A stretch of DNA of 27,151 nucleotides from the IMG/VR virus record IMGVR_UViG_3300009503_000105, positions 1 through 27,151 of that record, one strand, 5' to 3'. Of the stretch, positions 5,067 through 23,808 are shown in pieces; positions within the stretch are counted from its first letter, which is position 1; each line of letters begins with the position of its first letter. The stretch comes from a virus. The notes beneath the pieces were generated by a model, which worked only from the letters and a program-made list of their open reading frames with translations, had not been told where the DNA came from and searched no databases. The position numbers and the translations under genes were made by a program.

Positions 5067-5963
5067 ATGAGAGGCAATTATAGAGATATAAACAACGATC
5101 CAGAACGCAAGATTCTGAAAGAGATTCTGAACACTTATGAAGGAATTGATGAGTCTCTTATCAAGATCTCGTCTGATAAAGAGACTTTGTATGCTGATCC
5201 CGAAATGAAAATGTTCCCATTATCTTCTAAAGAATCTGTTTATACAACTTATTTATATGCCAAGTATCAGGGCCTATCTAACATAGAAAAAATGGCCGCC
5301 TCTATTTTGGAAGATATATATGGGATTGATGTATCTGGCATTAAAGTCAAAAAAGAAAAGTCTCTCGAGAAGAAGGCTGATATTCATCCACTGAAAGATC
5401 CCTTCTTTAAGTACAGGAAGTATAAAACAAAGGTAGCCTCAGTATTGGCACACACTGATATTCCTGAGTATGTCAAAATCATACCAGAGAAGCTTAAATA
5501 TAATCTCGAGCTTAGAAAGGTTGCCTGTGACAGATATGGTTCCAGACCGCAGGAGGGTGACAAGTATCTTAAGATAGCCAGCAGAGTTAACGAGTTTAAG
5601 GACAAATGCCTGACATCGGAGCAAATGGCCAAGATATGTGATTATATAGAAATTGTGGATAAGAAGGCTGGTCTCACAAAAGAATATGAAAAAAGAATAC
5701 CCAATCCTCTTTTTATGGTATTAGATTGTATTGAGCCAACTACCCCGTCTATTAAGATAGCAGGTTTTCACATAGATATTAAAAAAATGACATCCATCCC
5801 GCTAGATATATATGAATCAATTCTGGGAGAAGAGTTCGTCAAAAGGATAGTAGGCAAAGATGGGGAGATAGATCCTGATAAATTAGTAGAGAATCTAAAT
5901 ATGTTAACCCCGGCTCAGGAAGGCGATCTTCTAAAGGGGCTTAAGAAGCTTAACTACTTATAA
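5067..5963 (+). CDS. Unknown helical phage protein with FPL-S-x-ESV segment
   Basis: The 298-residue, Lys-rich protein has no membrane segment. Residues ~45-90 (YADPEMKMFPLSSKESVYTT, then a helix with NIEKMAASILEDIYGIDVSG) resemble a short domain seen in many phage proteins, where a 'fPi.d.ehV..A..yf' strand-helix unit is followed by a helix and a 'GI' turn. The function of that unit is unclear to me. The remainder is mostly charged helix with four cysteines that do not form an obvious metal site. GGAGAAGGA precedes the ATG, a strong ribosome binding site. The stop overlaps the next start by one base, so the two products are probably made together. Confidence 0.6.
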   Translation: MRGNYRDINNDPERKILKEILNTYEGIDESLIKISSDKETLYADPEMKMFPLSSKESVYTTYLYAKYQGLSNIEKMAASILEDIYGIDVSGIKVKKEKSLEKKADIHPLKDPFFKYRKYKTKVASVLAHTDIPEYVKIIPEKLKYNLELRKVACDRYGSRPQEGDKYLKIASRVNEFKDKCLTSEQMAKICDYIEIVDKKAGLTKEYEKRIPNPLFMVLDCIEPTTPSIKIAGFHIDIKKMTSIPLDIYESILGEEFVKRIVGKDGEIDPDKLVENLNMLTPAQEGDLLKGLKKLNYL

Positions 5964-6598
5964 TGGAAACCATTAAGTTGTCTGACGATATAACTGCATT
6001 CAAGCTACTAACTATACTCAAAGAAGAGTTAGGAGAAGACAAACTAGTAGATATAGATTGTGTCCATTATAACCTTGAAGCTAAAGGTATAGATTTAGAA
6101 CCAAAGGATATGGTTAGTGCTGTTGTTGCCTTTTATAACAATCCAATGCCATTCTATACCAATTGGGAGGCGTTTGATAAGTTTGTAGCTGCGTTTTGTC
6201 ACTATGATGTCAATCCTGACACTATCCATAAGAATAATATGTTCGAGGTTGTTAGAGCAATACTTGATGCTAAAAAAATAGTAGACACTTATATTAAGAC
6301 TGACATAAAGTTTAATAGTGAGGTATTAACCTATATAGCTGCTATTGCTCATGATGAAGGGCTAGTAGTATGTCCACCGGAGATAGCTTATACCGGTTTA
6401 CAGGAATATATGGATCGGGTTAATTATAATATTACCTCAGACATAAAGGATAAAATAACGAAGATATATAATGATTTATTGGAGGCTTATAACGCCCCAA
6501 ATCTTGCAAAAGTACTCGATAAAGATACGGATGATTTTATCATAGAAAACGCCCTTAAACTTCTCTCCATTACTTTATACACTAAAAAATATAATTAG
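5963..6598 (+). CDS. Unknown helical protein, last gene of the plus-strand block
   Basis: The product is 211 residues, mostly helical and mildly acidic, with no signal peptide or membrane segment and no motif I can assign. The ATG overlaps the previous stop (taATG), so it is translationally coupled to the 298-residue protein and may be its partner. It is the final gene before a hairpin-rich gap and a strand switch, so it ends this transcription unit. Confidence 0.55.
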   Translation: METIKLSDDITAFKLLTILKEELGEDKLVDIDCVHYNLEAKGIDLEPKDMVSAVVAFYNNPMPFYTNWEAFDKFVAAFCHYDVNPDTIHKNNMFEVVRAILDAKKIVDTYIKTDIKFNSEVLTYIAAIAHDEGLVVCPPEIAYTGLQEYMDRVNYNITSDIKDKITKIYNDLLEAYNAPNLAKVLDKDTDDFIIENALKLLSITLYTKKYN

Positions 6599-6731: not shown

Positions 6732-7352
6732 TTAATAATCATAAAAATAGCTTATGTATTGTTGGTTGGCCTTGTAAGGGCTATCCACCTTATAGGTATT
6801 ATATTTGTACGTATTGTTTGAATAATAGACTCCATTTTCTATTGTCCAGGAGTCTATCTTATAGATTTCTACTACCTTGTCCGATTTTAGCACCGCAACT
6901 TTTTCGTCAAGGTATTGCAGTACTTCTGTGTTTCCCACATGGGCAGCAAACATTGCTATTACTCTTGTATCAGATACGGGTCCACGAGGGACTATTTTAT
7001 GTATAGTGATAAGATCCATTAGCATTTTACTCCAGGCAGAGTAACCACCATTATGTATAAGTACTGCATCCGCTTCGCCTTCTAATTCTGGATCAGCAGT
7101 AGGAGTTATAGGGAATGGATGACACAAGAAAGGGTTAACTCCTCCAACTGAGGCTAATCTAAAATGGATAAGTTGCGGCAATTCTTTTTCTTGTGAAATT
7201 TTGTATATTTCGTCTGCTCCTATATTCTTTTTCCAGCGTACCTTACCATTCTCGACCCACGCTATGCCACCCCCGTCACGATTAGATGCTTCGCTATTTT
7301 TTAGTTGTTCTAGTGTTGGCTTGTTGCTGTCACAAACTATTGCTATACACAT
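6732..7352 (-). CDS. Class II (Ntn-type) glutamine amidotransferase
   Basis: The 206-residue protein begins MCIAIVCDS: once the initiator Met is removed, Cys2 is the N-terminal nucleophile that marks GAT-II enzymes. Further family signs are NRDGGGIAW (24-32), HFRLASVGGVN (63-73) followed by CHPF, and IHNGGYSAW (99-107), matching the HTR-A-x-G, HP and HNG elements of glutamine phosphoribosyl and glucosamine synthase glutaminase domains. It should release ammonia from glutamine, but has no synthase domain of its own. The ribosome binding site GGGAGG lies inside the 3' end of the upstream amidoligase-like gene, which it overlaps by 10 bases, so the two are translationally coupled. Amidoligase plus GAT-II is a known phage pairing thought to make or remodel amide bonds; the substrate is unknown. 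Confidence 0.85.
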   Translation of the reverse strand: MCIAIVCDSNKPTLEQLKNSEASNRDGGGIAWVENGKVRWKKNIGADEIYKISQEKELPQLIHFRLASVGGVNPFLCHPFPITPTADPELEGEADAVLIHNGGYSAWSKMLMDLITIHKIVPRGPVSDTRVIAMFAAHVGNTEVLQYLDEKVAVLKSDKVVEIYKIDSWTIENGVYYSNNTYKYNTYKVDSPYKANQQYISYFYDY

Positions 7353-8137
7353 GCCTTTCCTCCCGTTACTGGAATCGATTTAGTTATAATTGCTTTTTCT
7401 TTCTTCTCTTGATTTTTATATAACTTATCTAAATAATCGCAATATGTCTTGATTAATTCCTCAACTGCAGCGAGAGCCGTCTCCACTCTCGTGAACATTG
7501 GGAACAATCTACATTCTATTGTATTATGAACTTTATATGAAAAGTTTAGTTGTGTATATCTATGATAGTTACCTTTCATTTCTTTACATTGATAATCTGG
7601 GATAAACACTTTTGCAGCGAATCTATTTCTCCCACTTAGTCTGTACATTAATCTTTCTTTGTCGTTTGAATGTTTATCAAACTCATATGTATTAGCGAAA
7701 TTTTTCATTCTTTCTAGAAAAAACTTATAAAACTCTTCTTCCATTAAATTATTATAATGCCGAATTGATTTAAATGATACATGGATATGGAACCCACAGG
7801 TCTCATTAATTGCCACAGGGTAATATTTTATTATCCATTTTTTTAAGTCATCTAATTGTGAATATGGAAGTCGTGGAACTAACTCGCGACCCAATAGTCC
7901 TCCAGCTCTTTCTACTGGCGTATTTTCATCAAGGACGCCGAAAGCTATATTAGTTTCTTCTTTTCGTATTGTTTTATTATTATAGGTTGTGATTTCAATC
8001 CCTTTGTTTATATGTATTGAGCCATCTTCTTTTACTTTTACATCATCCGGTTCTTCAGTCAGGAGATCCTCTATAGATCTCTTTAGATAGATTCCTTCTA
8101 ATTCTACTGCAATTTTGTCAATATATTGGAATGACAT
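7343..8137 (-). CDS. Amidoligase-family (COOH-NH2 ligase) protein
   Basis: The 264-residue product carries the pattern of the glutamine-synthetase-fold amidoligase family: VELEG (11-15), KEDGSI (36-41), GIEITTY (46-52), CGFHIHVSF (114-122) and RYTQLNFSYKVHNTIECRLF (193-212). In this family the Glu, His and Arg residues of these motifs bind magnesium and ATP to form an amide bond between a carboxylate and an amine. The strong AAGGAG sits 8 bases before the ATG. It is immediately upstream of, and overlaps, the class II amidotransferase gene, which could supply ammonia or act on a glutamine side chain. An ATP-grasp ligase gene lies 4 kb away on the same strand. Target could be a virion protein, a host peptide or the cell wall; sequence alone does not decide. 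Confidence 0.8.
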   Translation of the reverse strand: MSFQYIDKIAVELEGIYLKRSIEDLLTEEPDDVKVKEDGSIHINKGIEITTYNNKTIRKEETNIAFGVLDENTPVERAGGLLGRELVPRLPYSQLDDLKKWIIKYYPVAINETCGFHIHVSFKSIRHYNNLMEEEFYKFFLERMKNFANTYEFDKHSNDKERLMYRLSGRNRFAAKVFIPDYQCKEMKGNYHRYTQLNFSYKVHNTIECRLFPMFTRVETALAAVEELIKTYCDYLDKLYKNQEKKEKAIITKSIPVTGGKACV

Positions 8138-9643: not shown

Positions 9644-10258
9644 ATGATTAAAGTCAATAAATCAGTCAATAGACAAGAAGAGAGGAAGTTACTTCTAGAA
9701 TACAAACTACACAATAATATAGAAGCCAGGAACAAACTTATCGAGGCCCATCAGAAGTTTATATACAATGAGGCTTTTAGATACTACAAGATGTATGTCG
9801 CCTACACTAATAACAGCTCTATCTATGAATTAGATGACTTTATAATGGAAGCCAATAGGGCCTTGATAAGAGCTATAGATGCCTTTGATATTAAGAGATC
9901 AACCAGACTGCTAACATACGCTGGACACTGGATTAAAGCTTATCTTTTTAAGATGGTTTATGGTGACGAGCACCAAGAAAACGATATTGATGTAGACACT
10001 GTAGAGGTAGAAGGTGAACCAGCGCTAGACCTTATTACTATTAAGATTAAGCTAAAAGAAGTCAGGAAAATACTTTCCCCGGTTGAATTCTTTGTTATTA
10101 GCAGTTTTATGGGGCTCACTGATATTAAGCCTTCTTGCCTACACCGTTACCTCTGCAGGAAGCAACAATGTGTATATTATATTAAGAGGAAGGCTAAACA
10201 GAAGATGCTCACAGTATTTACGCCTGCAGAATTATCTGCCCTTCTGTCGCTGTACTAA
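9644..10258 (+). CDS. Sigma-70-family-like phage sigma factor
   Basis: The 204-residue protein shows a region-2 layout: EARNKLIEAHQKFIYNEAFR (27-46) like region 2.1, DDFIMEANRALIRAIDAFD (64-82) like the 'DLIQEGNIGLIRAVEKFD' core-binding segment, and TRLLTYAGHWIKAYLFKMV (87-105) like regions 2.3-2.4, which melt and read the -10 element. Residues ~144-188 look like a region-4 helix-turn-helix with a basic end (KRKAKQKM) but are divergent. It is short for a primary sigma and resembles phage and alternative sigmas. GGGAG lies eight bases upstream of the ATG. The window also encodes RNA polymerase large-subunit parts, so it may redirect the phage enzyme, the host enzyme, or both. Its last 41 bases overlap the end of the opposing terminase gene. 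Confidence 0.8.
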   Translation: MIKVNKSVNRQEERKLLLEYKLHNNIEARNKLIEAHQKFIYNEAFRYYKMYVAYTNNSSIYELDDFIMEANRALIRAIDAFDIKRSTRLLTYAGHWIKAYLFKMVYGDEHQENDIDVDTVEVEGEPALDLITIKIKLKEVRKILSPVEFFVISSFMGLTDIKPSCLHRYLCRKQQCVYYIKRKAKQKMLTVFTPAELSALLSLY

Positions 10259-11855
10259 TCTCACCTAACAACGATAGCCCGTTTGGGAGCGAGTGATCAC
10301 CCGTTACCATCTTAATCCCTATCCACGCAAAGGCGACTGCGTGTAACAAGTCATCCATTTTTCCTTTCACTCTTTTCCATACTTTTCTCCCGCTCTCCTG
10401 GGTTTCAACATGCTCGTTTAATATCTCTTCTATGAGTTGGTTAGATTCTACCGGGAGGAATATTTTTTTCTGAAGGAGTTGGATCATTATGGCATCAAAT
10501 ATGGCTGTTTTGTTGGCTACATATTTATCACCAGAACGGGCCAGTATTTTATTTGGTGTGCCCCACTGAACCGGGGAAAAGACTATATTATTGGCTGCAC
10601 ATATTTTAAATAACTGTGTGTTCTGTACTAATCCTCCACCAGCATCGGCAAATACTACAGAGGGCTTAACTGTATTAATAACTCTTACAATTTCATCTAC
10701 ATCCTCTATCGGGTTGGAGGTTAGTTTTTTATAGTAAGCAATACCATATCCACTATTGTATGGTATCATTATTGCAATGGCTGTTTGTGATTGTATATCT
10801 TTATCAAGCTTGTGTGTATAATCGCTACCTCCCCAATCTATCCCCAGGGCTATGAAATTAGACTTAATAGATTCGAGCCCAGTATGGGGGATGATCTGCA
10901 ATGGGATAAGGTCTTTTCTTTCTATGATTCTGGTGCCTTTACCGTGAGATACTCCTAGGACTTCGTTATAGAATTTACTCTCGGTCCAGTCTTGCCTTTC
11001 CATCAGGTTGAGGATTTGTGTTTTCCACTTCTGCCTGTTGAGTTCTTCATTTTTGCTTATTACGATTGCCGTTCTGGCTATATGGAATCCCTTAATTACC
11101 CCTGATGGATTTAGAGGTATAAATTTACCTTCCAATGGGTTTAGTGGCCCGCCGCACTTAGTACAAATGGGACCATTTAGTCCTATAGTCTTAGTAGATA
11201 TAAACATGTTGTAGGTATTGCACTTATTGCACTTAACCATCCATTCGTGTTGTGTACTTTCACTCCATAATGATTCTATATCATTGTCAAGTGATTTTGG
11301 GGTGCCACAATAAACCATTTCATTCCGCAGAGCCTGGAAGGTACAAGCCTCTATAACTGGACCAACAGTTTTGACGTCTATATCCTGGATCTCATCCATA
11401 ACTATCCTATCAAATGTATATGACCTAACCCTGTCTGGATCATCCTGAGCATAACTAAATAGTACATATGCCTCATTGTCGAATAACTTGAAAAACACGT
11501 TATCAGTTCCAGCCTTATTACTGGGGGTATAGAAGTTAGGCCATAATAACTTAGACGACTTAAGCATGGACTTAAATTTGATGATAGAAAACGCCTTTGC
11601 CTGTGATTGTAAGGGTGTTAGATATAATTGATTATACTTTTCAAATTTGGCATCCAGAATCATAGCCATATTGATTGTCATGCTTTTACCGGTTTGCCTT
11701 CCCCATTTTATTAATATTGAAGGTGACCAATCCAGGTCTAGGAGATATTTACTATGTGGATAGAGATCAAATGATATTGAAGATTGTCTGTACTTCAGGA
11801 AGAGCTCAGCCTGTTCGCTGCGAGTTAGGTAAGCAACTTCTTTATTTCCGTCCAT
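10218..11855 (-). CDS. terL: Large terminase subunit (DNA packaging ATPase-nuclease)
   Basis: The 545-residue protein has the two-domain terminase layout. ATPase: Walker A WGRQTGKS (51-58) and Walker B IVMDE (151-155), with a YCGTP coupling-like motif (172-176). Nuclease: GIDWGGSD (338-345, metal-binding D340), VFADAGGG (401-408) and KMDDLLHAVAFAW (499-511), the acidic triad of the RNase H-like fold. Between them a zinc ribbon, C209-x2-C212 and C231-x2-C234, is inserted. It pumps DNA through the portal and cuts the concatemer. Portal lies 5 kb upstream on the same strand, an unusually wide separation. The ATG at 11855 sits 31 bases inside the previous small ORF with GGAG only two bases away, so the exact start is uncertain. 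The 3' end overlaps the sigma gene by 41 bases. Confidence 0.93.
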   Translation of the reverse strand: MDGNKEVAYLTRSEQAELFLKYRQSSISFDLYPHSKYLLDLDWSPSILIKWGRQTGKSMTINMAMILDAKFEKYNQLYLTPLQSQAKAFSIIKFKSMLKSSKLLWPNFYTPSNKAGTDNVFFKLFDNEAYVLFSYAQDDPDRVRSYTFDRIVMDEIQDIDVKTVGPVIEACTFQALRNEMVYCGTPKSLDNDIESLWSESTQHEWMVKCNKCNTYNMFISTKTIGLNGPICTKCGGPLNPLEGKFIPLNPSGVIKGFHIARTAIVISKNEELNRQKWKTQILNLMERQDWTESKFYNEVLGVSHGKGTRIIERKDLIPLQIIPHTGLESIKSNFIALGIDWGGSDYTHKLDKDIQSQTAIAIMIPYNSGYGIAYYKKLTSNPIEDVDEIVRVINTVKPSVVFADAGGGLVQNTQLFKICAANNIVFSPVQWGTPNKILARSGDKYVANKTAIFDAIMIQLLQKKIFLPVESNQLIEEILNEHVETQESGRKVWKRVKGKMDDLLHAVAFAWIGIKMVTGDHSLPNGLSLLGEISTATEGQIILQA

Positions 11856-12010
11856 AACTCCGAGTCTACTAAATTGCCCCTAAAAATGGGCTTTATTAGT
11901 TCTTTATATAGGTCAATCTCCCTAGGCGAAACCGGTTTCGCTTCCATATACTTCCTTAATATCTCTAAAGCTCTTGAATCATACCTATAAGGTAATCTAT
12001 AAAATCTCAT
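11825..12010 (-). CDS. Small ORF of 61 aa before terminase, carries palindrome copy 2
   Basis: The 61-residue basic product (MRFYRLPYRYDSRALEILRK then EAKPVSPREIDLYKE) has no recognised family. It is far too short for a typical small terminase, but position just upstream of terL makes that worth checking. The palindrome GCGAAACCGGTTTCGC encodes part of AKPVS in its middle. The start follows a run of ten G on the coding strand that could serve as a poor ribosome binding site. Its 3' end overlaps terL by 31 bases, suggesting translational coupling. Confidence 0.5.
   Translation of the reverse strand: MRFYRLPYRYDSRALEILRKYMEAKPVSPREIDLYKELIKPIFRGNLVDSELWTEIKKLLT
11926..11941. repeat. Dispersed 16-bp palindrome GCGAAACCGGTTTCGC, copy 2
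   Basis: This exact copy lies inside the 61-residue ORF, where its minus-strand reading is Ala-Lys-Pro-Val-Ser. It is 5299 bp from copy 1. Being inside a short gene just ahead of terL, it could act as a DNA site without harming a structured protein. Confidence 0.9.
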
Positions 12011-12032: not shown

Positions 12033-12947
12033 TTATGCTCTTATTGAGGTATAATTTATTAAATCTCCAATTCTTATGTTACTGAGATCAAGTATCTTTT
12101 CGGCTTCGGATATTACATCTGACAAAATATAATTTATTAGTAGCAGCCCTTTTCTAACAACTTTTATAGATGGGGCACTATTTGTTTCGAATACATATAC
12201 ATCGTCATCATCTGCAATACACAGGTCAACAGCACCAAAATCCAGTCCTACAGCATTTATTGCTTTCAAGGCTTCGATCTTTACCTCTTCGGGGACATCT
12301 CTGATTGGAATGAAGAGCCAGCCATTTGCATAATTTCTCGCATCCTTCGATGCGTCCCCTCCATATCTACTCGCAACAGCTGCAATTTCTTCTTCGGATG
12401 GCCGTTCGCCTTTAATTTTGATATCCACTTCCATTATTTTATTTTTATAAATAAAAACTCTGAATTCGTCTTTTATATTTATTTTTTCTATAAGCATTTC
12501 ATCAGGGGCCAACGATATAGACCTACCAGCCGGAATAAATTCCATATCATTGCCCCTCCTATGATTGAACTTTCTCTTATACATACCATTCCTTGCTTCA
12601 ATAGTAACATTCATATCTCTATCAGTATCATTTATGATAGTGCTAGGTATACTAACACTATTTTCTATAAATAATTTTCTCATTTTAACTTTATCTGCAG
12701 AGTTACTTATAGCGGTTGGGGAGTTTATATGATACACCCTACTAATTCTACCATTTCGCTCTCTAAACATTTGTTCAGAATCGGCTATGGGTATAGACGA
12801 CCCATATCTCAATAGCACTTCTATGTTATTGCGAGTCTCTTCATTTATATCGTCTTCATCAAATAATGGCACGACTAGCGGAGATATTTTGCTTAGAAAC
12901 ATAACTGTCTCTTTGCTAATCTTGTTTCCTAAAACGTAAATTTTCAT
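12033..12947 (-). CDS. ATP-grasp ligase (RimK/YheC-like carboxylate-amine ligase)
   Basis: The 304-residue protein has an N-terminal pre-ATP-grasp domain starting MKIYVLGNKI, with LLRYGSS at 45-51 and NSADKVKMRKLF (82-93), where the chain enters the ATP-grasp fold. EFRVFIYKNKIMEVDIKI (161-178) and GLDFGAVDLCI (234-244) with VFETNSAPS (252-260) supply the Asp, Glu and Asn that hold magnesium-ATP in RimK-like enzymes. Such enzymes activate a carboxylate as acyl phosphate and join it to an amine, often adding amino acids to a peptide or protein. AGGAGG is placed inside the end of the reverse transcriptase gene and the start overlaps that gene's stop (ATGA), so both are made together. The acceptor is unknown. 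Confidence 0.82.
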   Translation of the reverse strand: MKIYVLGNKISKETVMFLSKISPLVVPLFDEDDINEETRNNIEVLLRYGSSIPIADSEQMFRERNGRISRVYHINSPTAISNSADKVKMRKLFIENSVSIPSTIINDTDRDMNVTIEARNGMYKRKFNHRRGNDMEFIPAGRSISLAPDEMLIEKINIKDEFRVFIYKNKIMEVDIKIKGERPSEEEIAAVASRYGGDASKDARNYANGWLFIPIRDVPEEVKIEALKAINAVGLDFGAVDLCIADDDDVYVFETNSAPSIKVVRKGLLLINYILSDVISEAEKILDLSNIRIGDLINYTSIRA

Positions 12948-13774
12948 GTTGCCTCCTGTGCTGCTTTGTTTTTAATCATATTTTCATATGATAACAACCC
13001 AGCGATGTCTAAAGGAAGATTCTCATCATATCTATGATTAAACTTGATTGCTCTTATCAACCTTCTGGTTTCTTTAGGTAAATTTATCTTTTTATTGATA
13101 ACCAGACCACATACTATTTGTCTCTTATGGTCTGGCATCATTCTTATTTTCCTTTTATTGGGTTTCATTCTCATATGGTACAATATTTTCATCATATAAG
13201 ATATTACCTTTTGTAATTTCTCTCTATTATCACCAGACAGTATAATATCATCGGCATATCTCGTATAGTTCACATCCTTCTTTTGTGCAAATGTGGCCAC
13301 TTTCCAGTCAAAATTACCCATAAATATATTGGATAATATTGGAGAGGTGGCAAAGCCTGGTGGCAGAAATACCTTGCCGTTCTTTTCTCTAACAAAACAG
13401 GGTTCTATTTTTTCTATATAAGACATTATCTCCTCAAACGATATAAAATTATACTTTTTTGCAGTTATTTCGTATACGAATTTGTCGTATGTTATGTTCT
13501 CAAAAAAATTTTTGAGATCAACCTTGAAAACATATTTATGCCCTACATGGGGCTTAACCGCATCAACAATACTCTTGCCTTTAATGTATGCACAGGCCCA
13601 GGGCGATATAAGCTTACTAATTTTACTTTTATACAAAAAATCAAGCAAGGATTTAATCTTTGCCTTTAGTGATTCAGATGGGATATAAATAGTTCTATAT
13701 TTCCCACCCATTTTAATTTTGGTCTTTTTTACCTCCTCGTCTACATTGGTAAAATTAAATTTCCTGTCAGCCAT
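12944..13774 (-). CDS. Retron-like reverse transcriptase
   Basis: The 276-residue protein carries the RT palm and fingers: KYRTIYIPS (25-33), AYIKGKSIVDAVKPHVG (62-78), KVDLKNFF (84-91, catalytic D86), LPPGFATSPILSN (137-149), YTRYADDIILSG (170-181, catalytic D175/D176) and CGLVINKKINLP (222-233), followed by a LLSYENMI thumb-like segment. LPPGFATSP and GLVINKK resemble retron and related RTs, not diversity-generating RTs, which carry a different motif 4 ending in SQ. It is complete but has no extra domain. The gap to the upstream gene is four bases and the downstream gene overlaps by four, so there is no room for a normal adjacent msr-msd RNA. A GAG about ten bases upstream is a weak ribosome binding site. 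Activity and template are unknown. Confidence 0.9.
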   Translation of the reverse strand: MADRKFNFTNVDEEVKKTKIKMGGKYRTIYIPSESLKAKIKSLLDFLYKSKISKLISPWACAYIKGKSIVDAVKPHVGHKYVFKVDLKNFFENITYDKFVYEITAKKYNFISFEEIMSYIEKIEPCFVREKNGKVFLPPGFATSPILSNIFMGNFDWKVATFAQKKDVNYTRYADDIILSGDNREKLQKVISYMMKILYHMRMKPNKRKIRMMPDHKRQIVCGLVINKKINLPKETRRLIRAIKFNHRYDENLPLDIAGLLSYENMIKNKAAQEAT

Positions 13775-13778
13775 GTTT

Positions 13779-14465
13779 TTACTCGTTCCACTCCATTAAA
13801 TTTATAAATGGTGACTCCCCCATTTCCTTTACCTCCTCCCTTAATTTATCAGTACCCCAGAGTTCATCAGCTTTCTGAAAGTATATAAAATCCTTCATAG
13901 ACAATATCTTATAGATTTCTTCCCTCAAAGATGGAATATTATAACCTATCATATATAGTTGGGGTGGGTGAAACTTTGTAATATTTTCCCTTATTATCTT
14001 TTCTTTGTCTTCTATCCCATCCCACGTAAGCAACGAAAGACAATAATATTCACTCGCTCTGGGAGAATTGTCCCATAATTTATCGTATATGCTAATATAC
14101 TCAGAGCCATTCCAACCTTGTTCCAACACTATGTACCAAATATATTTGAAAATTTTATATTCAACATACAGGTCATAATAATATTGGGCTCCTTTGTCTC
14201 CTTTTGGGGGTAAATCTATATCTCTAATGATGGTAGCTTTGGATAGTTTGGCAAACCAGGGATAGTTTTGATATAGTTCCCCATCTAATACTTGCAAAGC
14301 CACATTAAAAGGAGCCCTAATCTCATGCTCACTAGGATTGTAGGCTATTACATCATATCTTATATCTAATTCCTTTTTTATGGATACCAATATATCCCCG
14401 GTAGTACCAAGAGAATCACCAAACCTATTTTTCCTGCTGTACCGTACTGGCCTGATGAATAGCAT
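13779..14465 (-). CDS. Unknown 228 aa protein upstream of the reverse transcriptase
   Basis: No family is recognised. The 228-residue product is rich in Tyr and Trp, with YNPSEHEIRAPFNVALQVLD then GELYQNYPWFAKL as its most distinctive stretch (about residues 42-74). It has no membrane helix or classical motif. No ribosome binding site is visible; the ATG is 41 bases inside the preceding gene, so translation is likely coupled to it. It ends four bases before the RT start. Conserved neighbourhood of this gene with RT plus ATP-grasp would make it a third component of the same system. Confidence 0.6.
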   Translation of the reverse strand: MLFIRPVRYSRKNRFGDSLGTTGDILVSIKKELDIRYDVIAYNPSEHEIRAPFNVALQVLDGELYQNYPWFAKLSKATIIRDIDLPPKGDKGAQYYYDLYVEYKIFKYIWYIVLEQGWNGSEYISIYDKLWDNSPRASEYYCLSLLTWDGIEDKEKIIRENITKFHPPQLYMIGYNIPSLREEIYKILSMKDFIYFQKADELWGTDKLREEVKEMGESPFINLMEWNE

Positions 14466-15420
14466 TTGTCAAGGACAATGAAGTTAATTTACAACCATAA
14501 TCTATTATAGTTGCCTTGTTATCCTTTATAATCAAGAATGGTTCAAATCTGGGAGTAATATTGCCGCTAGTGGCATCATAATATCTCTTTGCAACACTTT
14601 TATATTCTTTGCAATATACTGGCTTATATTCTGGCGGTGGAACAGCAGTATATGTCTTTGCCGTATTCTCTGCTCTCCTGGCCATTCTTTCGTCTAACCC
14701 AAGATAGTCTTTCATTATATCTCTAATATCTTCGAACAGAGCATTTATATCTATTCCGTTTTCGTCCAATAAATGCTCTTCTGCTGTAAGGGCTGCAAAT
14801 CTTAGTGTGTCAATAAATTCCATCTCATAAATATCTATTGCAATTGCTATTTCGTCTAGTAAAGTATCGACATCATTCTGTATGTTCCTTAGAATAGGTA
14901 CAAGTGCATCTATTGATTCTTTATATGTTAAGTCTGTCATGAAACTTACATTTATTATGCCTCTTAAACGCATATGGGAAATAACAGACAGCCCATCCGT
15001 AATGACATCCCCAACAACAGCTCTCTCCATAAAATCGCCGTTGGCTACTGTGAGATATTGCTTATATAATTCTTTTAGTTTATTTTCCTTCTCTATTAAA
15101 TCATCTAAGAATGATAAGACTACATATTTATTAAGGGTCTGATGTTCAATAACATATTGAGACGCCGAAATAAGCGTTCTACATATACTTTTATAAGCTT
15201 TTTTAATTTTCTTTTCCAATCGGATCACATCAATTGTTTTAACTCTGGCGAATTCATTGCTATTATTGTCCTTCTTATCGTCTTTTTTCTCATCCTTTTT
15301 CTCCAGCGGTTCTGATCCACAAGTAGGGCAGATTCCATTTACCAAGTCCTTGCCACATTTTGGACACTTGTCTGCATTGGGTATATCTACCCCGTATTTG
15401 ATCATTCCATTATCTCCCAT
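14425..15420 (-). CDS. Zinc-ribbon protein with long helical body, 331 aa
   Basis: An N-terminal zinc ribbon is clear: CPKCGKDLVNGICPTCG (about residues 19-35; two CxxC pairs). A Lys/Asp linker (EKKDEKKDDKKDNN) follows, then a mainly helical body to about residue 250. The C-terminus is strand-like (FEPFLIIKDNKATIIDYG). No catalytic motif is seen. AAAGGAGG precedes the ATG, the best start signal in this part of the cluster, so it may lead a translational unit with the unknown, RT and ATP-grasp genes that follow with 4-41 base overlaps or gaps. Zinc ribbons of this kind often bind nucleic acid or a partner protein; that is family inference. Confidence 0.65.
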   Translation of the reverse strand: MGDNGMIKYGVDIPNADKCPKCGKDLVNGICPTCGSEPLEKKDEKKDDKKDNNSNEFARVKTIDVIRLEKKIKKAYKSICRTLISASQYVIEHQTLNKYVVLSFLDDLIEKENKLKELYKQYLTVANGDFMERAVVGDVITDGLSVISHMRLRGIINVSFMTDLTYKESIDALVPILRNIQNDVDTLLDEIAIAIDIYEMEFIDTLRFAALTAEEHLLDENGIDINALFEDIRDIMKDYLGLDERMARRAENTAKTYTAVPPPEYKPVYCKEYKSVAKRYYDATSGNITPRFEPFLIIKDNKATIIDYGCKLTSLSLTNAIHQASTVQQEK

Positions 15421-15445: not shown

Positions 15446-16186
15446 TTAGAAGTATATGTTTTTAGGATCTTCTGCTTTGCCAAACTCGCATATATCGTAA
15501 AAGTCACACCATTTTTCGGAACACATCCACCCATTGTCCGAATTTCTGTCCACAGGGGGAAATATATCGTTGATGATGCTATTATATATACCTCTTATTA
15601 TTTCCATAACTCTCTTGGCTTTCATCCTTATATCTTTAAATTCTCTGTAGGTAAAAATCGGATTGCCACCTTTAACGAATAGATTATATTGTCCTATATC
15701 TTTATCAAACGCTACAGCCTCCAGTATCAATTGAATTGGGTATGGCTTTTCATATCTATGCATGCTATTTTTCGAGATTATTTTTGTATCTATAACCCTA
15801 TCTGCCGTTACAATATCGGCTATTAGATACATAGGGATGCTGCCTATAGTAAAAGAAATAGCCCTTTCTACTCCCTCCACATTCTGTGGTATCCATTCAC
15901 CAGATTGAATAGCTGGCATTACCGAATTAATTTCATCTAATACTTCTTGCTTCTCCTCGTCTGAGAAGTAAGTAAGGTCTGCCTTAATTTCCTGCTCTCC
16001 CATGATATCTATTATATTTATTGATTCGTTCCTCAGCTTTCTTTCTATTAATCTATGCAGAATTTTTCCAGTTGTAATATATGGCCTGGGCTTTGTAACA
16101 ATCTTATCTTTATATATGAGTTTATACTTATATGGACACCCCATATAAGTATTAATTTGACTCGGTGACAAATATTCTATTTTCAT
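15446..16186 (-). CDS. PD-(D/E)XK nuclease of the Cas4/RecB type with Fe-S cysteines
   Basis: The 246-residue protein starts LSPSQINTYMGCPYKYKLIY (6-25), the usual opening of RecB/AddB/Cas4-type exonuclease domains. GKILHRLIE (40-48) supplies the conserved His, LIADIVTADRVIDTKI (121-136) the metal-binding Asp124/Asp133 and Lys135, and PIQLILEAVAF (150-160) the conserved Gln. C17 with C222, C227 and C233 form the one-plus-three cysteine pattern of a 4Fe-4S cluster that staples the fold. It should be a DNA exonuclease or structure-specific nuclease. AAGGAG precedes the ATG, which overlaps the previous stop by four bases. Phages use such proteins in recombination and replication; here RNase H is two genes upstream. 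Confidence 0.87.
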   Translation of the reverse strand: MKIEYLSPSQINTYMGCPYKYKLIYKDKIVTKPRPYITTGKILHRLIERKLRNESINIIDIMGEQEIKADLTYFSDEEKQEVLDEINSVMPAIQSGEWIPQNVEGVERAISFTIGSIPMYLIADIVTADRVIDTKIISKNSMHRYEKPYPIQLILEAVAFDKDIGQYNLFVKGGNPIFTYREFKDIRMKAKRVMEIIRGIYNSIINDIFPPVDRNSDNGWMCSEKWCDFYDICEFGKAEDPKNIYF

Positions 16187-16531: not shown

Positions 16532-16939
16532 TTATCCTCTCTTTCTTAACGTTTGATGAACTAATCTGTCGGCTTCTTTATTCTTTTTTCTTGGAACATG
16601 TCTCACTTTAACATTTTTTAGTTGAGACATTAAAGCCTTAGCTTTTTCATATAATGCTCTTATATTATCCGCTTTTACTTGATATAGACCATTAATTTGA
16701 TGTGCTACCAATTGTGAGTCGGTATTTATTAAAATATTTTCTATTTTATGCGCAATACAATATTCAAGCAGTTTTATTAATGCCAGATATTCTGCTTCAT
16801 TGTTTGTTACCTCTGTCGAGTGTTTTATACTTTCTTGTATTATTTTTCCGCCCCCGGTGTCTAAAATAAAGGCTGATACGCCAACACCCGGATTGTTCTT
16901 TACTCCTCCGTCAATCCATGCTGTTACATATTTTTCCAT
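16532..16939 (-). CDS. rnhA: Type I ribonuclease H
   Basis: The 135-residue protein matches bacterial/archaeal RNase HI: IDGGVKNNPG (9-18, D10), TNNEAEYLAL (45-54, E48), INTDSQLV (71-78, D74) and HVPRKKNKEADRLV (114-127, D124) give the full DEDD catalytic set. It cleaves the RNA of RNA-DNA hybrids. Length is like the compact single-domain form without the extra basic loop of E. coli RNase HI. AAAGGAGG is six bases before the ATG. It is in the same minus-strand run as the reverse transcriptase and a nuclease, so removal of RNA primers or of an RT template are both possible roles. Confidence 0.93.
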   Translation of the reverse strand: MEKYVTAWIDGGVKNNPGVGVSAFILDTGGGKIIQESIKHSTEVTNNEAEYLALIKLLEYCIAHKIENILINTDSQLVAHQINGLYQVKADNIRALYEKAKALMSQLKNVKVRHVPRKKNKEADRLVHQTLRKRG

Positions 16940-16959: not shown

Positions 16960-16977
16960 TTATAACATATTTTTTCT
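16960..16977 (-). promoter_or_regulatory. 18-bp repeated AT element, copy 2
   Basis: The minus-strand sequence AGAAAAAATATGTTATAA is identical to 9354-9371. It begins at the portal stop codon and ends 20 bases before the RNase H ATG, in the same orientation relative to the gene as copy 1. It could restart transcription for the RNase H to terminase run. Evidence is the repeat and its position only. Confidence 0.35.
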
Positions 16978-18673
16978 AAATACCCTGCTGGGCCCTACCT
17001 TCCTGAGCAGCTGTTCTCCTGATATCCTCCATCATATCAACTACTACGGCATATAATACATAATTATCCTTTTTGAGCGTAGCAAGGTATGATCTTCTCA
17101 AGTTTTCAGGCAGCTGTACAAGTTGTTCAGCATAAGATCTGGCCTGTTCCTTAATAGCGTCAAGAGAACCACTGTATATATTTTGCTGGGGTCGCATCTG
17201 CTGCTGACCCATGATTGCCATCTGCTTTTCCTGGATCCTCTTCTGCATCTGCATTGCATCAATCTGTTCAGCCTCTATGTTTCTCATTTCTTTTTCGTAA
17301 TCAATACCATACATTGCAAGGCCAGTCTTTTTGGACAACATCTCGCTACCTACCATCTGGGCCAATATAACTTTTTCGTCCATATTATCTAATAACCTGA
17401 ATGGAGTCATTCGGACTATTGCCGGCTGTTTTCCAAAGTAATCAGATAATTTGTTATCAACCCATTGTAGTAAATCGTTTAGTTGATCAATACCACTCTG
17501 AAGGAATTTTTCCAGCATACGGAGAGACAAAGGAAGTCCCTTGTACTGCATCCCGCCATAATGGATTTCTCGAGGTAACCCTATACCAGCAAGTATATCG
17601 TCCGTAGCCATTTGAATCTCATTATAGGTCAGTAGAGCCTTACCCTGACCTCCAACAGTTGCTGTTCCAAGAGGTATCGGTGAAATTTCTATATGTAAAG
17701 GATCTCTCCTCCATTTTTTTAGATTCCTGCTTACTTCTGATTTCCATTTGCTCAGATTGACGTACTGGAATGGATCGGGACCACCCTGAGATGATGGGAA
17801 GAGGATTCTAAATGGTACTAGATAATCATATGAGATAGCCTCGTTTGCCTTTTTGAGGATTTCTCTGTTTATGTAGTCTTTGAGCGTCCAGGCTACCATT
17901 GGGTATCCCCAATCCTGGCTCATACCACTTAATCCTTCGTTCTTAATGTGATAAAACTCACCTTCGGTTAGCTTAATAGTGCCTTCTTTTGATAAAGCAC
18001 CCTTAATTATTTCTATTGGAGTAGATGCTAAAAAGAATTTGTCCTTGTTTTTTATTCTTGCCTTGGTCTCGGCATCTATGTGAACCCAGATCTCCTCTTT
18101 ACCGCTATACTTGTTGTAATTTATGTCTACAAATTTCGGATCCCACTTTATAAAATGTATTCTTTGAGGATTTAAATCTTTAACATCCTTCACTTCCGCT
18201 GGAACGTTGGTATTACATTTTGTGCAGAAAAATCTGAATTCGGCCTTTGATGGTACGAAAGAAAAATCAGTTTTTTCTATAGGAACTACGTTCCCGCACT
18301 TTACACACCTTAACTGACGCTTGAATGGATAGGCTATACTACAGATAAAATTACCATAGAAATAAAGCCCTTCCTTAGCAGCTCTAGTAAGCAGATTATA
18401 TATCTTAGCCTTCCTGAATAATATGTCTCTATGCCAATCTTCGAGCTGCTTATTTCCACCAGCATCTATCTCTATATCTGTGACTATATAGGAAGCCAGC
18501 TTGCTAACAGACGAAGAAATTTGAGAACTGCTTCCATATAAGAATTCCGCCCATCTGAATAGGTCCTTTAATTTCCTGGGCAGAAATACTGTAGTATACT
18601 GAAATACGGGATTGGGATGTGATGCCGATAACAAAGAATCGTCGCTAAAAGTAACTACAGATGGATCACTCAT
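16976..18673 (-). CDS. Portal protein
   Basis: The 565-residue product has portal-like features: an N-terminal helical stretch with FLYGSSSQISSSVSKLASYIV (45-65), a central wing, and a C-terminal crown-like Gln/Met-rich tail (MQMQKRIQEKQMAIMGQQQM). GLPREIHYGGMQYKGLPLSL, followed by a helix (MLEKFLQSGIDQLNDLLQW), resembles the stem and clip area of large portals. Twelve copies would form the DNA channel at the capsid vertex and dock the terminase. A zinc ribbon, C123-x2-C126 and C150-x2-C153, is inserted in the wing, which is not usual for portals. AGAGGTG precedes the ATG. The assignment rests on overall pattern and on the terminase in the same strand run. Confidence 0.78.
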   Translation of the reverse strand: MSDPSVVTFSDDSLLSASHPNPVFQYTTVFLPRKLKDLFRWAEFLYGSSSQISSSVSKLASYIVTDIEIDAGGNKQLEDWHRDILFRKAKIYNLLTRAAKEGLYFYGNFICSIAYPFKRQLRCVKCGNVVPIEKTDFSFVPSKAEFRFFCTKCNTNVPAEVKDVKDLNPQRIHFIKWDPKFVDINYNKYSGKEEIWVHIDAETKARIKNKDKFFLASTPIEIIKGALSKEGTIKLTEGEFYHIKNEGLSGMSQDWGYPMVAWTLKDYINREILKKANEAISYDYLVPFRILFPSSQGGPDPFQYVNLSKWKSEVSRNLKKWRRDPLHIEISPIPLGTATVGGQGKALLTYNEIQMATDDILAGIGLPREIHYGGMQYKGLPLSLRMLEKFLQSGIDQLNDLLQWVDNKLSDYFGKQPAIVRMTPFRLLDNMDEKVILAQMVGSEMLSKKTGLAMYGIDYEKEMRNIEAEQIDAMQMQKRIQEKQMAIMGQQQMRPQQNIYSGSLDAIKEQARSYAEQLVQLPENLRRSYLATLKKDNYVLYAVVVDMMEDIRRTAAQEGRAQQGI

Positions 18674-19491: not shown

Positions 19492-22400
19492 ATGATTAGA
19501 CCAATTATTAATTCACCAACAGTTTTACGGAAAGATATTATAGAGAAGGCTGTCCAATCAATTAAAGAAAATTTCCCCATAAAGACTAATCTTGGGAGTC
19601 TAGAGGTTGAAGATGTAAGGGTTGTAGATAAAGAGTACTCACTAAAAGACGAAAAAGCCGCAAAAATAGCCAGGGAACACCTAACCATACCAATTAAGGG
19701 TAGGGTTATATTAAAAGATAAAGATGGCAATGTTCTTGATGAGTCTACAAGGACCATAGTAAAGGTGCCATATCTTACCGGTAGACATTCCTTCATATTT
19801 GGTGGAAATGAATATACTTACGGTAATATGCTCCGTATGAAACCCGGCGTTTTATTATATAAACACGGGGCAGATGATATACGGGCGATGTTTAACCTGG
19901 AAAAAGGTAGGAACTTCAATTTGGAATTCTCACCAGATACTGGTAAATTTACCATTAGATATGGCACAAAAGGAGTCCCACTGTTTGCTGCACTGCATGC
20001 ACTTGACTATGACCCATCTCAACTTAAGTCCATCATAGGGAACGACCTCTATGAAAGAAATAAGATCAAAGACATTGACAAACATATAGAAACACTTTAC
20101 GAACAGCTCTACCCTGACTTTATGCGTCAGCATGATACAATCGAAGCTAAAAAACAAGCCATTAAAGAACATCTTCTTGGGTCAGTAATGGACCCTATCG
20201 TCAATAAATACACAATAGGAGTAGAGCATTCCAATCTGACTCCAGAAGTATTTATTAATGCCGTTAAAAAGCTCATAGACCTGAATAAGTCTGGTGTAGA
20301 CATTTATGACGATAGAGATAATATAGGTTACAAAAAGCTCTTTGGAGTAGATGACTTTATTGCGGAACGTATTAAACATATTACTAAAGATATAGCGAGT
20401 AGGCTTAATAAGCATATTACTACAAATCCATCTATCTCAACTATTATGCCGAGCTGGTATATGACCGACAGTCTAATAAACTTTCTACAGATGTCGGAAT
20501 TATCTAAGATATCTGAGCAATACAATCCACTCAGCATAATAGATGAAAGAGGTAGAATATCCCTTATGGGAGAAGGTGGGATAGGGGATGAAAGGGCTAT
20601 TCCTATAGGTGCAAGGCAGGTACACGGCTCTCATCTTGGAGTGGTAGACCCTATAAAGACCTCCGAGTCACACCATGCGGGTGTAGAACTACGTTCTACT
20701 ATAACAGCCGCAAAAGATGAAAAGGGCAATCTTTATGCACTATTGTTAGATAAGAAGGGCAATAAAACCTATGTGCCAAATATAGAATTTGTCAATAAGG
20801 TTATAGCCTTTTATCCTCCTCGCAAGGGAGAAAAGGAAGTAGATGCCCTAGTTAAGGGTCTCCCCTCAAGAGTAAGTGTAGACAAGATTGATTATATATT
20901 GCCATCCCAGGCTTTTTTATACGGGGAGGTCACAAATTTAATACCTTTCAAAAATTCGGTAGATCCTAACCGAGCACTGATGGGAGCTAAGCATATAACC
21001 CAGGCTCTTCAATTAAAGGATCCTGAGCCATTATTAGTAAGACCAGCCATGAAAGGCAAGGACTTACATAAAATGATAGCTGAGATCCTGAACCCCCGAT
21101 CTCCAGTAGATGGGGTAGTAACTGGTATAGATTCAGATTATATCTATATTAAACCCCTAAAAAAACAAGCTGCCTCTTCTGATAATATAGTTAAAATCCC
21201 CCATGTAAAGAATTTCCCACTAAATGAAGGGGCCTTTTTCTCGATCTACCCCGCCGTAAAACCAAAAGACAAAGTTAAGGCTGGTCAAGTAGTAGCAGAA
21301 TACCATTCAGCCAGGGATGGTGAAATTAAAGTAGGTAAAAATTTAAGAAGTGCTTATATAAACTATTATGGATTAAATAGTAATGATGCAGTAGTCGTAT
21401 CTGAGTCAGCAGCTAAAAAGTTAACTTCAATCCACGTACATAATGTGATAGTCCCTAAGAACCCCAATTCCGTATTTGATAAAAATAAATATATAGGCAA
21501 GTTTATGAATAAGCATCCCCTTGAAACTCTCAAAAAGCTGGATGAAAATGGGGTGATTAAAAGAGGTGCTATTGTCAATCCGGGGGAGCCAATTGCTGTT
21601 AGTATGGAACCATCTACTTTAACGGCAGAAGCCCAATTTATGGGTAAGCTAACCAGGAAGTTGTTTAATAGTCATGTTGATACAAGTGTACTGTGGGATA
21701 AGAACTTCCCTGCAGAAGTATTAGATGTTAAAGAAACCCCCACTCATTATTCTATTACACTAAGGATGGAGGCCCCAGCTCAGATAGGAGATAAAGTATC
21801 AGGTTTATACGGGAATAAGGGAACTATTGCTAAAATTATTCCAGATGAGCAGATGCTTCGTACTGAGGATGGACAGCCTCTTGAAATACTTATGACCCCA
21901 GCGGGAGTTGTCAGTAGAATTAACCCGGCTCAGCTATACGAGGCTGCCCTCGGAAAGATAGCTAGTAAAACTGGAAAGAAATACCTTATTGATATAGATG
22001 AACATATAGATAATTATAAGTTCGTAATGGATGAGCTTAAAAAGCATGGGATAAAATCTAAAGAGACATTGATAGATCCAGTCACGGGTAAAAAGATTCA
22101 TAATATTTTTACAGGTGTTTCTCATATTCTTAAGTTGTTCAAGACTACAGATACTAACTTTTCGAGTGTAGGGATAGGGCATTATGATCAGAATGATCAG
22201 CCAGTTCAGGGTGGTGAGGCTGGGGCTAAGGCTATAGGGAAAATGGAGTTTGATGCTCTTCTTTCCCATAATGTAAAAAATTTACTGAACGACATAATCA
22301 TCAAGGGTAACAGAAATGACGAATTCTGGAGAGCTGTCCAGTTGGGATTGCCCTATCCGGCTCATAAGACACCTACAAGCTTTAATAGGTTTACGCATTT

Positions 22401-23808
22401 CCTTAATGGACTGGGAGTAAAAGTAGATAAGAAAAGCAATATATATTACTTCCTCCCTATGACTACTAAAGAAATAGAGAAGATATCAGCTGGTGAGATA
22501 AAAAATCCACTAATGCTCAATCAGAAGAATCTATCTCCTGAAGAAGGTGGATTGTTTGACTATAATCTCACCGGGGGACCATCAGGGGGGAAGTTTGCTC
22601 ATATAACCCTACATACACCAGTATTAAACCCAATATTTGAAGATGGGGTTAAAGATTTATTAAATCTTACTCAGAAAGAATTTAATGACATAACTACGGA
22701 AAAGGGATTTGCGGGTCTGAGGAAGCTACTAAAGGACTTTGATTACAATAAGAGAGAAAAAGAAATTCTGGAAAAGGTCGAGAATAAAGAAGAACTTACT
22801 TCCAAAGATATTTCTGCCTTGAAGATAATAAAGGCAATGAGAGAACATGACATTCATCCAGCTACTCACTGGTTCATAGAAAAACTACCAGTTATTCCTC
22901 CTATTAGTAGACCCATCATTCAGGCTAAAGATGGTAAAGTATTCGTTTCTCCATTCAATTATCTATACAGAGACATTATAATAGCAAACGAAAACCTCAA
23001 GAATAGTGAAGATCTGCCAAATAAAGATAAACTCATAGCCCAACAGACATTATATTCTGCTGTAAAGGCACTAATTGGTCTGGATGAACCTGTAAGTCTG
23101 CAAGCTAAGACAAAGGGGGCTAAGGGGATTATAACTTTCCTTGGTGGCACTAACCCTAAGGCTGGGTATTTCCAATCAGTTGTTTTATATAAGCCCCAGG
23201 TATTATCAGCAAGAGGTACAGCCGTACCAGATACTTCGTTACATATGGATAATGTACGAGTACCTGAGGATATTCTATGGAACATATACCAGCCATTTCT
23301 TGTTAAAAGGATGCTAAATAAGGGCTATGACGCTGTTACGGCCAAAAAGATGATAGAGGAGAAACACCCTGTAGCAAGGGAGGCATTATTGTTAGAATGT
23401 AAAGAAAGACCGATTATATATAATAGGGCTCCTTCAATACATAGGTTCAACTTAGTGGCCGGCTATCCTATTCCAAGTCAAGGTAAGACCATCCAGGTCT
23501 CTCCATTTATAGAAGGCGGGATGAACTTAGATTACGATGGAGATGCCCTGCAAATCCATGTACCGGTAACCGAGCGCGGGGTGGAGGATGCTAAAAAGAT
23601 ACTCCCCTCTAAGTTAATATTTGGTGATAGGAAAAAAGGTGATTTAATGATGATACCTGGTCATGAGGCTCTATGGGGTGCCTATGTGGCCTCTAAAGAA
23701 AAGAACCATGGTGGTAAAAAAATAGTTAAATTTAAAACACTAGACGAAGCCGTCGAGGCTTGGAAACGTGGCGAAATAGAACTGGGTACGGAGGTTGTCA
23801 TTGGATAA
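19492..23808 (+). CDS. Phage RNA polymerase: beta fused to N-terminal half of beta-prime
   Basis: The 1438-residue protein is a full beta subunit joined to the front of beta-prime. Beta marks: RISLMGEGG (355-363), then ARQVHGSHLGVVDPIKTSES, PFKNSVDPNRALMGAKHITQ, GDKVSGLYGNKG (766-777, K768 and K776 of the active centre) and GKMEFDALL at the beta C-terminus. Beta-prime begins near residue 990 with GEIKNPLMLNQKNLSPEEGG, then FAHITLHTPV, RPIIYNRAPSIHRF, and the catalytic NLDYDGD (1345-1351; D1347, D1349, D1351 hold magnesium). The chain ends where bacterial beta-prime reads '..KVRI', and the rest is encoded by the gene at 24748. The first beta-prime zinc finger is missing: GGLFDYNLTGGPSGGKFAHI replaces the Cys-containing stretch. 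It makes RNA in the host cytoplasm and needs a promoter-recognition partner, perhaps the sigma at 9644. Confidence 0.95.
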   Translation: MIRPIINSPTVLRKDIIEKAVQSIKENFPIKTNLGSLEVEDVRVVDKEYSLKDEKAAKIAREHLTIPIKGRVILKDKDGNVLDESTRTIVKVPYLTGRHSFIFGGNEYTYGNMLRMKPGVLLYKHGADDIRAMFNLEKGRNFNLEFSPDTGKFTIRYGTKGVPLFAALHALDYDPSQLKSIIGNDLYERNKIKDIDKHIETLYEQLYPDFMRQHDTIEAKKQAIKEHLLGSVMDPIVNKYTIGVEHSNLTPEVFINAVKKLIDLNKSGVDIYDDRDNIGYKKLFGVDDFIAERIKHITKDIASRLNKHITTNPSISTIMPSWYMTDSLINFLQMSELSKISEQYNPLSIIDERGRISLMGEGGIGDERAIPIGARQVHGSHLGVVDPIKTSESHHAGVELRSTITAAKDEKGNLYALLLDKKGNKTYVPNIEFVNKVIAFYPPRKGEKEVDALVKGLPSRVSVDKIDYILPSQAFLYGEVTNLIPFKNSVDPNRALMGAKHITQALQLKDPEPLLVRPAMKGKDLHKMIAEILNPRSPVDGVVTGIDSDYIYIKPLKKQAASSDNIVKIPHVKNFPLNEGAFFSIYPAVKPKDKVKAGQVVAEYHSARDGEIKVGKNLRSAYINYYGLNSNDAVVVSESAAKKLTSIHVHNVIVPKNPNSVFDKNKYIGKFMNKHPLETLKKLDENGVIKRGAIVNPGEPIAVSMEPSTLTAEAQFMGKLTRKLFNSHVDTSVLWDKNFPAEVLDVKETPTHYSITLRMEAPAQIGDKVSGLYGNKGTIAKIIPDEQMLRTEDGQPLEILMTPAGVVSRINPAQLYEAALGKIASKTGKKYLIDIDEHIDNYKFVMDELKKHGIKSKETLIDPVTGKKIHNIFTGVSHILKLFKTTDTNFSSVGIGHYDQNDQPVQGGEAGAKAIGKMEFDALLSHNVKNLLNDIIIKGNRNDEFWRAVQLGLPYPAHKTPTSFNRFTHFLNGLGVKVDKKSNIYYFLPMTTKEIEKISAGEIKNPLMLNQKNLSPEEGGLFDYNLTGGPSGGKFAHITLHTPVLNPIFEDGVKDLLNLTQKEFNDITTEKGFAGLRKLLKDFDYNKREKEILEKVENKEELTSKDISALKIIKAMREHDIHPATHWFIEKLPVIPPISRPIIQAKDGKVFVSPFNYLYRDIIIANENLKNSEDLPNKDKLIAQQTLYSAVKALIGLDEPVSLQAKTKGAKGIITFLGGTNPKAGYFQSVVLYKPQVLSARGTAVPDTSLHMDNVRVPEDILWNIYQPFLVKRMLNKGYDAVTAKKMIEEKHPVAREALLLECKERPIIYNRAPSIHRFNLVAGYPIPSQGKTIQVSPFIEGGMNLDYDGDALQIHVPVTERGVEDAKKILPSKLIFGDRKKGDLMMIPGHEALWGAYVASKEKNHGGKKIVKFKTLDEAVEAWKRGEIELGTEVVIG
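23790..23794 (+). promoter_or_regulatory. Ribosome binding site that fixes a TTG start
   Basis: GGAGG lies six bases before TTG at 23801, inside the end of the polymerase gene. The other in-frame TTG at 23795 abuts this site and is too close. No ATG is available near the start of the phosphoesterase domain. Confidence 0.6.

Follow-up and report, generated by a model that had tools for sequence, protein, structure and literature searches.

A retron-type reverse transcriptase and an overlapping ATP-grasp ligase, probably mere neighbours in a large-phage operon

In a virus record of 27,151 bases (the whole stretch analysed here, called the window), a reverse transcriptase (RT; 276 amino acids, 12944-13774, minus strand) and an ATP-grasp ligase (304 amino acids, 12033-12947, minus strand) are encoded by overlapping genes. 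We consider it likely that these are two separately explained genes standing side by side in a portal-to-terminase operon. The RT and the ligase are probably neighbours rather than one machine, because they are found apart elsewhere and the usual partners of the ligase are encoded a few kilobases away. The gene identities proposed in the sequence-only reading of this DNA were borne out: the RT matches PF00078 (E=1.7e-25) and has an intact YADD motif, and the ligase matches PHROG 2599, 'S6 glutaminyl transferase' (5e-24).

The RT stop codon TGA and the ligase start codon ATG share the sequence ATGA at positions 12944-12947 (minus strand), and the junction reads ...GCACAGGAGGCAACATGAAAATT. An AGGAGG ribosome-binding site for the ligase lies within the RT gene (12952-12957, minus strand). 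The same RT-ligase pair is carried by a related virus contig, L002, with the same ATGA junction (...GGGAGAAGCATATGAAAATT), and the pair was found in these two viruses only. Thus, the coupling signal noticed at first sight is real and persists in a relative, and the two proteins may be expressed in a fixed ratio. Between the window and L002, the RTs are 57% identical and so are the ligases, and the four-fold sites at identical residues match in 7 of 42 cases for the RT and 14 of 47 for the ligase. Since the proteins keep this identity despite synonymous sites near saturation, both frames are real and under purifying selection. Survival of the junction and its ATGA in two viruses near synonymous saturation is also what would be seen with deliberate coupling, and speaks against the neighbour reading. 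However, overlaps are routine in this genome, so that the overlap alone does not mark out the RT-ligase pair: of the 24 junctions between same-strand genes in the window, 10 are overlaps, three of them of exactly 4 nt (the coordinates of one small ORF being approximate). Overlaps of 4 nt are also seen in the RT relatives L143, L144 and L206, there between the RT and another, unrelated gene downstream. The overlapping gene in L143 (6717-7151) appears GatB/YqeY-like by eye; this neighbour of amide-chemistry type is probably a coincidence.

The pair belongs to a large tailed phage that encodes a multisubunit RNA polymerase of its own; besides the polymerase genes, the window holds genes for terminase, portal and a sigma factor. 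The gene run on the minus strand starts with the portal protein (16976-18673) and continues with RNase H (16532-16939; PF13456, 8.1e-22), a 115-amino-acid protein, a PD-(D/E)XK nuclease (15446-16186; PF12705, 5.7e-9), a 331-amino-acid protein with a weak zinc-ribbon-like N terminus (14425-15420; 46% identity to L002), a 228-amino-acid protein that has no match in Pfam or PHROG (13779-14465; 71% identity to its L002 counterpart), the RT, the ATP-grasp ligase, a small ORF of 61 amino acids (11825-12010; kept in L002, 6e-10) and the terminase large subunit (10218-11855; PHROG 675, 5.8e-40). This whole run is kept between the window and L002, and thus conservation of the RT-ligase pair does not exceed that of the genes around it. 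The portal family is common to 33 distant viral contigs and Salmonella phage Arash, and this ATP-grasp gene is absent from the 33 distant relatives retrieved by the portal. Arash and other large phages have a portal (27% identical in Arash) and split RNA polymerase genes like those of the window; unlike the window, Arash has no RT or ATP-grasp annotated in a 25.6-kb stretch around its portal. As for the polymerase itself, two distinct polymerase profiles match one after the other along a 1438-aa ORF of the window (19492-23808), and the match to the second profile carries on in another ORF (24748-26445). From these matches, it looks as if beta and part of beta' were fused, and beta' were split.

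The ligase falls in the phage ATP-grasp/amidoligase/GATase family by its match to an HMM trained without the window (2.3e-38), and its matches to NCBIfam RimK-family models lie far under the curated cut-offs. The metal-binding signature of ATP-grasp enzymes is conserved, with D241, E254 and N256 in invariant columns. The glycine-rich loop is altered, reading NHRRGNDMEF in the window and SGHSGAGI in relatives, and for this reason the substrate may differ from that of the relatives. Sets of an ATP-grasp protein, an Amidoligase_2 protein and a class-II glutamine amidotransferase (GATase) were reportedly predicted by Iyer et al. in 2009 to form amide or peptide bonds. Phages CVT22 and CW02 and the LUZ24-like phage UFV-P2 (PMC3890496) have annotated sets of this kind, and GAP52 has most of one. 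The window has all three proteins on one strand. The Amidoligase_2-type ligase lies at 7343-8137 (minus strand), with a sub-threshold match to PF12224 (E=0.0044) and a match of 1.8e-10 to an HMM of 57 phage loci; the class-II GATase lies at 6732-7352 (minus strand), with a sub-threshold match to PF13522 (7.2e-5) and a match of 5.4e-11 to an HMM of 68 phage loci. The window was left out of training in both cases. For the amidoligase, useful matches came from profiles alone; a direct BLAST comparison with phage records and the proteins of CVT22 yielded none. Compared with the set in CVT22, CW02 and UFV-P2, the ATP-grasp gene of the window is set apart by about 4 kb from the other two, adjoins the RT and a terminase gene, and encodes the changed loop. 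The distance from the amidoligase is 3.9 kb; elsewhere the median is 1 kb and the range extends up to 4.1 kb. AlphaFold models were too poor to be of use, with mean pLDDT values of 35 for the ATP-grasp protein (two-sequence alignment) and 33.5 for the amidoligase (single sequence).

How this family is usually accompanied was seen from viral contigs scanned with a five-sequence alignment, which gave 79 other ATP-grasp loci. A class-II GATase is present in 68 of them, an amidoligase in 66 and both in 65, and no RT was found in the flanks of any of the 79 (up to 10 kb, often shorter). These counts speak against the earlier proposal that the ligase serves the RT as an effector, a payload or a priming enzyme. 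The L002 contig ends inside the terminase gene, so that it does not show whether the amidoligase and the GATase are present there. By profiles and gene neighbourhoods, the ATP-grasp protein is the ligase of the known phage trio of ATP-grasp, Amidoligase_2 and class-II GATase.

The RT was placed by tree, profiles and structure-library matches, all of which point to the retron type. The NCBIfam models matched below their curated cut-offs, with 160 bits for retron St85 (cut-off 235), 128 for Ec67, 60 for Drt3a and 51 for Drt2; retron models as a whole gave 120-164 bits and Drt4 gave 26. The best match was not a DRT or Abi model. In PADLOC, the best 25 models are all retron RTs, with types III-A, II-A and Ec107-like among the closest, and the best PDB chains are the RTs of retrons Ec83, Ec86 and Ec78. 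The window RT shares with these the fold, the motifs, YADD and the arrangement of regions X and Y. It differs from them in having neither an adjacent msr-msd nor a recognised retron effector, and in altered NAxxH and VTG motifs. Region X reads A-V-x-x-H in the window and A-A-x-x-H in L002, with the H kept, and in region Y of both viruses VTG reads VCG, with the G kept and T replaced by C. The N of NAxxH is present in 126 of the 174 RTs compared and the T of VTG in 132; validated retrons, too, occasionally depart from the motifs here (PMC6868368). The window RT ends about 53 residues after the VTG glycine, whereas L055 and L051, two RTs with a retron label, continue for 73-82.

Broad scans for relatives of the RT supplied the best 80 loci in genomes of bacteria and another 79 viral loci. 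A tree of 174 RTs pairs the window with L002 (support 1.0), and the two join L063, L144, L143, L146, L145, L147 and others (inner supports 0.53-0.87) in a 29-member group (support 0.96) made up mostly of viral contigs, many of them over 100 kb. A conserved RT-ATP-grasp neighbourhood, as the sequence-only reading had suggested searching for, was not seen beyond the L002 lineage; relatives of the two genes stand apart there, the outcome that this reading had named as reducing the pair to local gene order. By the ATP-grasp profile, none of the 159 other RT loci listed (best 80 genomic and 79 viral) has an ATP-grasp gene beside the RT, and only one of them, L092, has an ATP-grasp-like ORF at all, 4.5 kb from the RT on the opposite strand. 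The nearest relatives L063, L143, L144, L146 and L145 have neighbours other than ATP-grasp. Scans of viral contigs for the RT, the ATP-grasp protein and the terminase with window or two-sequence queries returned L002 or nothing; these collection scans used short peptide patterns, by which diverged loci are missed.

No msr-msd was found next to the RT. The 228-amino-acid gene ends 4 nt upstream of the RT in the window, which leaves no room for a separate ncRNA, and the corresponding gap in L002 is 2 nt. No stable structure common to the window and L002 was found near the RT, and Rfam gave no match. One hairpin inside the RT gene, picked up in scan segments that start at 13020 (z -5.3) and 13080 (z -4.4), has no counterpart in L002. 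Synonymous-site conservation revealed no embedded RNA in the RT, the 228-amino-acid gene or the ATP-grasp gene. The sole significant peak lies at the start of the RNase H gene (16858-16930), where synonymous codons are unusually conserved against L002 (19 of 20 identical, z 4.5; 95% null 3.65), possibly an embedded signal. Thus, the RT is by sequence of retron type, yet it is not filed as a retron here, because no adjacent ncRNA was found. The only gene linked to it as a possible effector is the ATP-grasp gene, which is otherwise explained by its partner set.

Among the alternatives, the one that survives best is that the RT belongs to a phage-carried retron that acts against rival phages and has its msr-msd RNA at another place in the genome. 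This is a tentative possibility, clearly less probable than the neighbour reading. Retron-like RNAs are indeed seen upstream of related RTs. In five RTs of a sister group (L192, L203, L200, L173 and L157), the upstream regions are closed by stems that differ in sequence and yet pair, namely CAGUUAUA/UAUAACUG in L192 and L173, ACAGUUAUA/UAUGAUUGU in L203, UAGUUAUA/UAUAACUA in L200 and GGCUAUA/UAUAGCU in L157, a pattern that would suit a compensatory closing stem. The stems were picked by eye from the comparison across relatives, without a formal null. The upstream regions of this group fold more stably than mononucleotide shuffles; when single sequences were searched for inverted repeats closing the regions upstream of RTs, real loci were not separable from shuffles. 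In a close relative, L063, whose contig was assigned to a bacterial MAG, the RT is preceded by a structured, retron-like gap of 275 nt (5702-5976), closed by the repeats AATAGACA/TGTCTATT, a stem that is not significant by itself. There is also a precedent for such separation in Nannocystis exedens, where msr-msd repeats occur without an RT within a kilobase (PMC6868368). On the other side, no msr-msd-like element was found within the 27 kb available, which is a fragment of the genome, and the N of NAxxH and the T of VTG are both replaced in the window and L002.

It is unlikely that the pair makes up a new retron-like system, with the ATP-grasp protein as an effector that the RT and its cDNA restrain until a trigger sets it free. 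The retron type of the RT and the overlapping, conserved junction would fit it, and retron effectors are diverse and can be translationally coupled with their RT; the PtuA gene of Ec78, for example, overlaps its RT by 4 nt. However, there is no adjacent ncRNA (gaps of 4 and 2 nt, and no structure matching in both viruses), this ligase stands beside no other RT among the 159 loci listed, and it belongs to the core of a different set that is widespread. No paper containing both 'retron' and 'ATP-grasp' was found in the literature, covered mostly outside subscription journals. It is equally doubtful that, in a large-phage lineage, a retron-derived RT deprived of its neighbouring ncRNA and of motif residues now cooperates with a peptide-forming ligase, for example by using or marking a ligase-modified protein.

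Still less probable is an RT primed by a protein, as in several DRT systems, with the ligase making or modifying the priming protein. The missing adjacent RNA and the altered NAxxH and VTG are in line with it, and protein priming is described for DRT9 and DRT10 (PMC12489045, PMC12632851). Against it are the bit scores, in which retron models far exceed Drt3a, Drt2 and Drt4; moreover, no comparable ligase is seen with other RTs, and no candidate primer protein was identified. An RT of a diversity-generating retroelement, to which phage location and small size might point, was rejected as highly improbable, since no template/variable repeat pair is present in the window and the profile and structure-library matches are to retrons and not to such retroelements.

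The preferred reading, two separately explained neighbours, would imply two independent functions on a shared transcript, a carboxylate-amine ligase and a retron-type RT. From the chemistry of its family, the ATP-grasp protein would activate a carboxylate of a peptide or protein with ATP, as an acyl-phosphate, and then convert it to an amide, and the amidoligase and the GATase would perform other steps alongside it. The RT, given its intact YADD and motif-A Asp, would still make cDNA. Because the template RNA is not adjacent in the lineage of the window and L002, the RT may act on an RNA encoded elsewhere or may have taken up a new template. We infer cDNA synthesis, a template in trans, these enzymatic products and the functional independence of the RT and the ligase.

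The clade of the window RT also includes RTs of other large viral contigs with a different neighbourhood. In L192 (3054-6828), a bpMoxR gene (PF20030, 1.6e-49), a VWA gene, a structured gap and a retron-type RT follow one another, and the best PADLOC match is type XIII. The same arrangement is found in the large viral contigs L203, L157, L200, L173, L160, L207, L181 and L189; the gap is only 8 nt in L160, and the VWA or MoxR frames are broken or missing in some of the contigs. Judged by its compensatory closing stems, the gap looks like a retron ncRNA. L192, L203, L157 and their relatives share the clade of the window RT (support 0.96) and their location on large viral contigs; in these, a retron-like RNA precedes the RT and bpMoxR-VWA genes lie upstream, and the window has neither. 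The phage RTs of L041-L045, L144 and L147 are also near DUF2201 metallopeptidase/VWA genes, so that RTs from several branches share a VWA neighbourhood.

This case separates a suggestive gene overlap from a real partnership. It also brings out a clade of retron-type RTs, mostly on large-phage contigs, in which some members have retron-like RNA and MoxR/VWA neighbours and others have no adjacent RNA. These loci are concrete constructs for testing the role of retron-type RTs in lytic phages. Should the RT of the window prove active with no msr-msd beside it, it would be an instructive example of how retron RTs change template.
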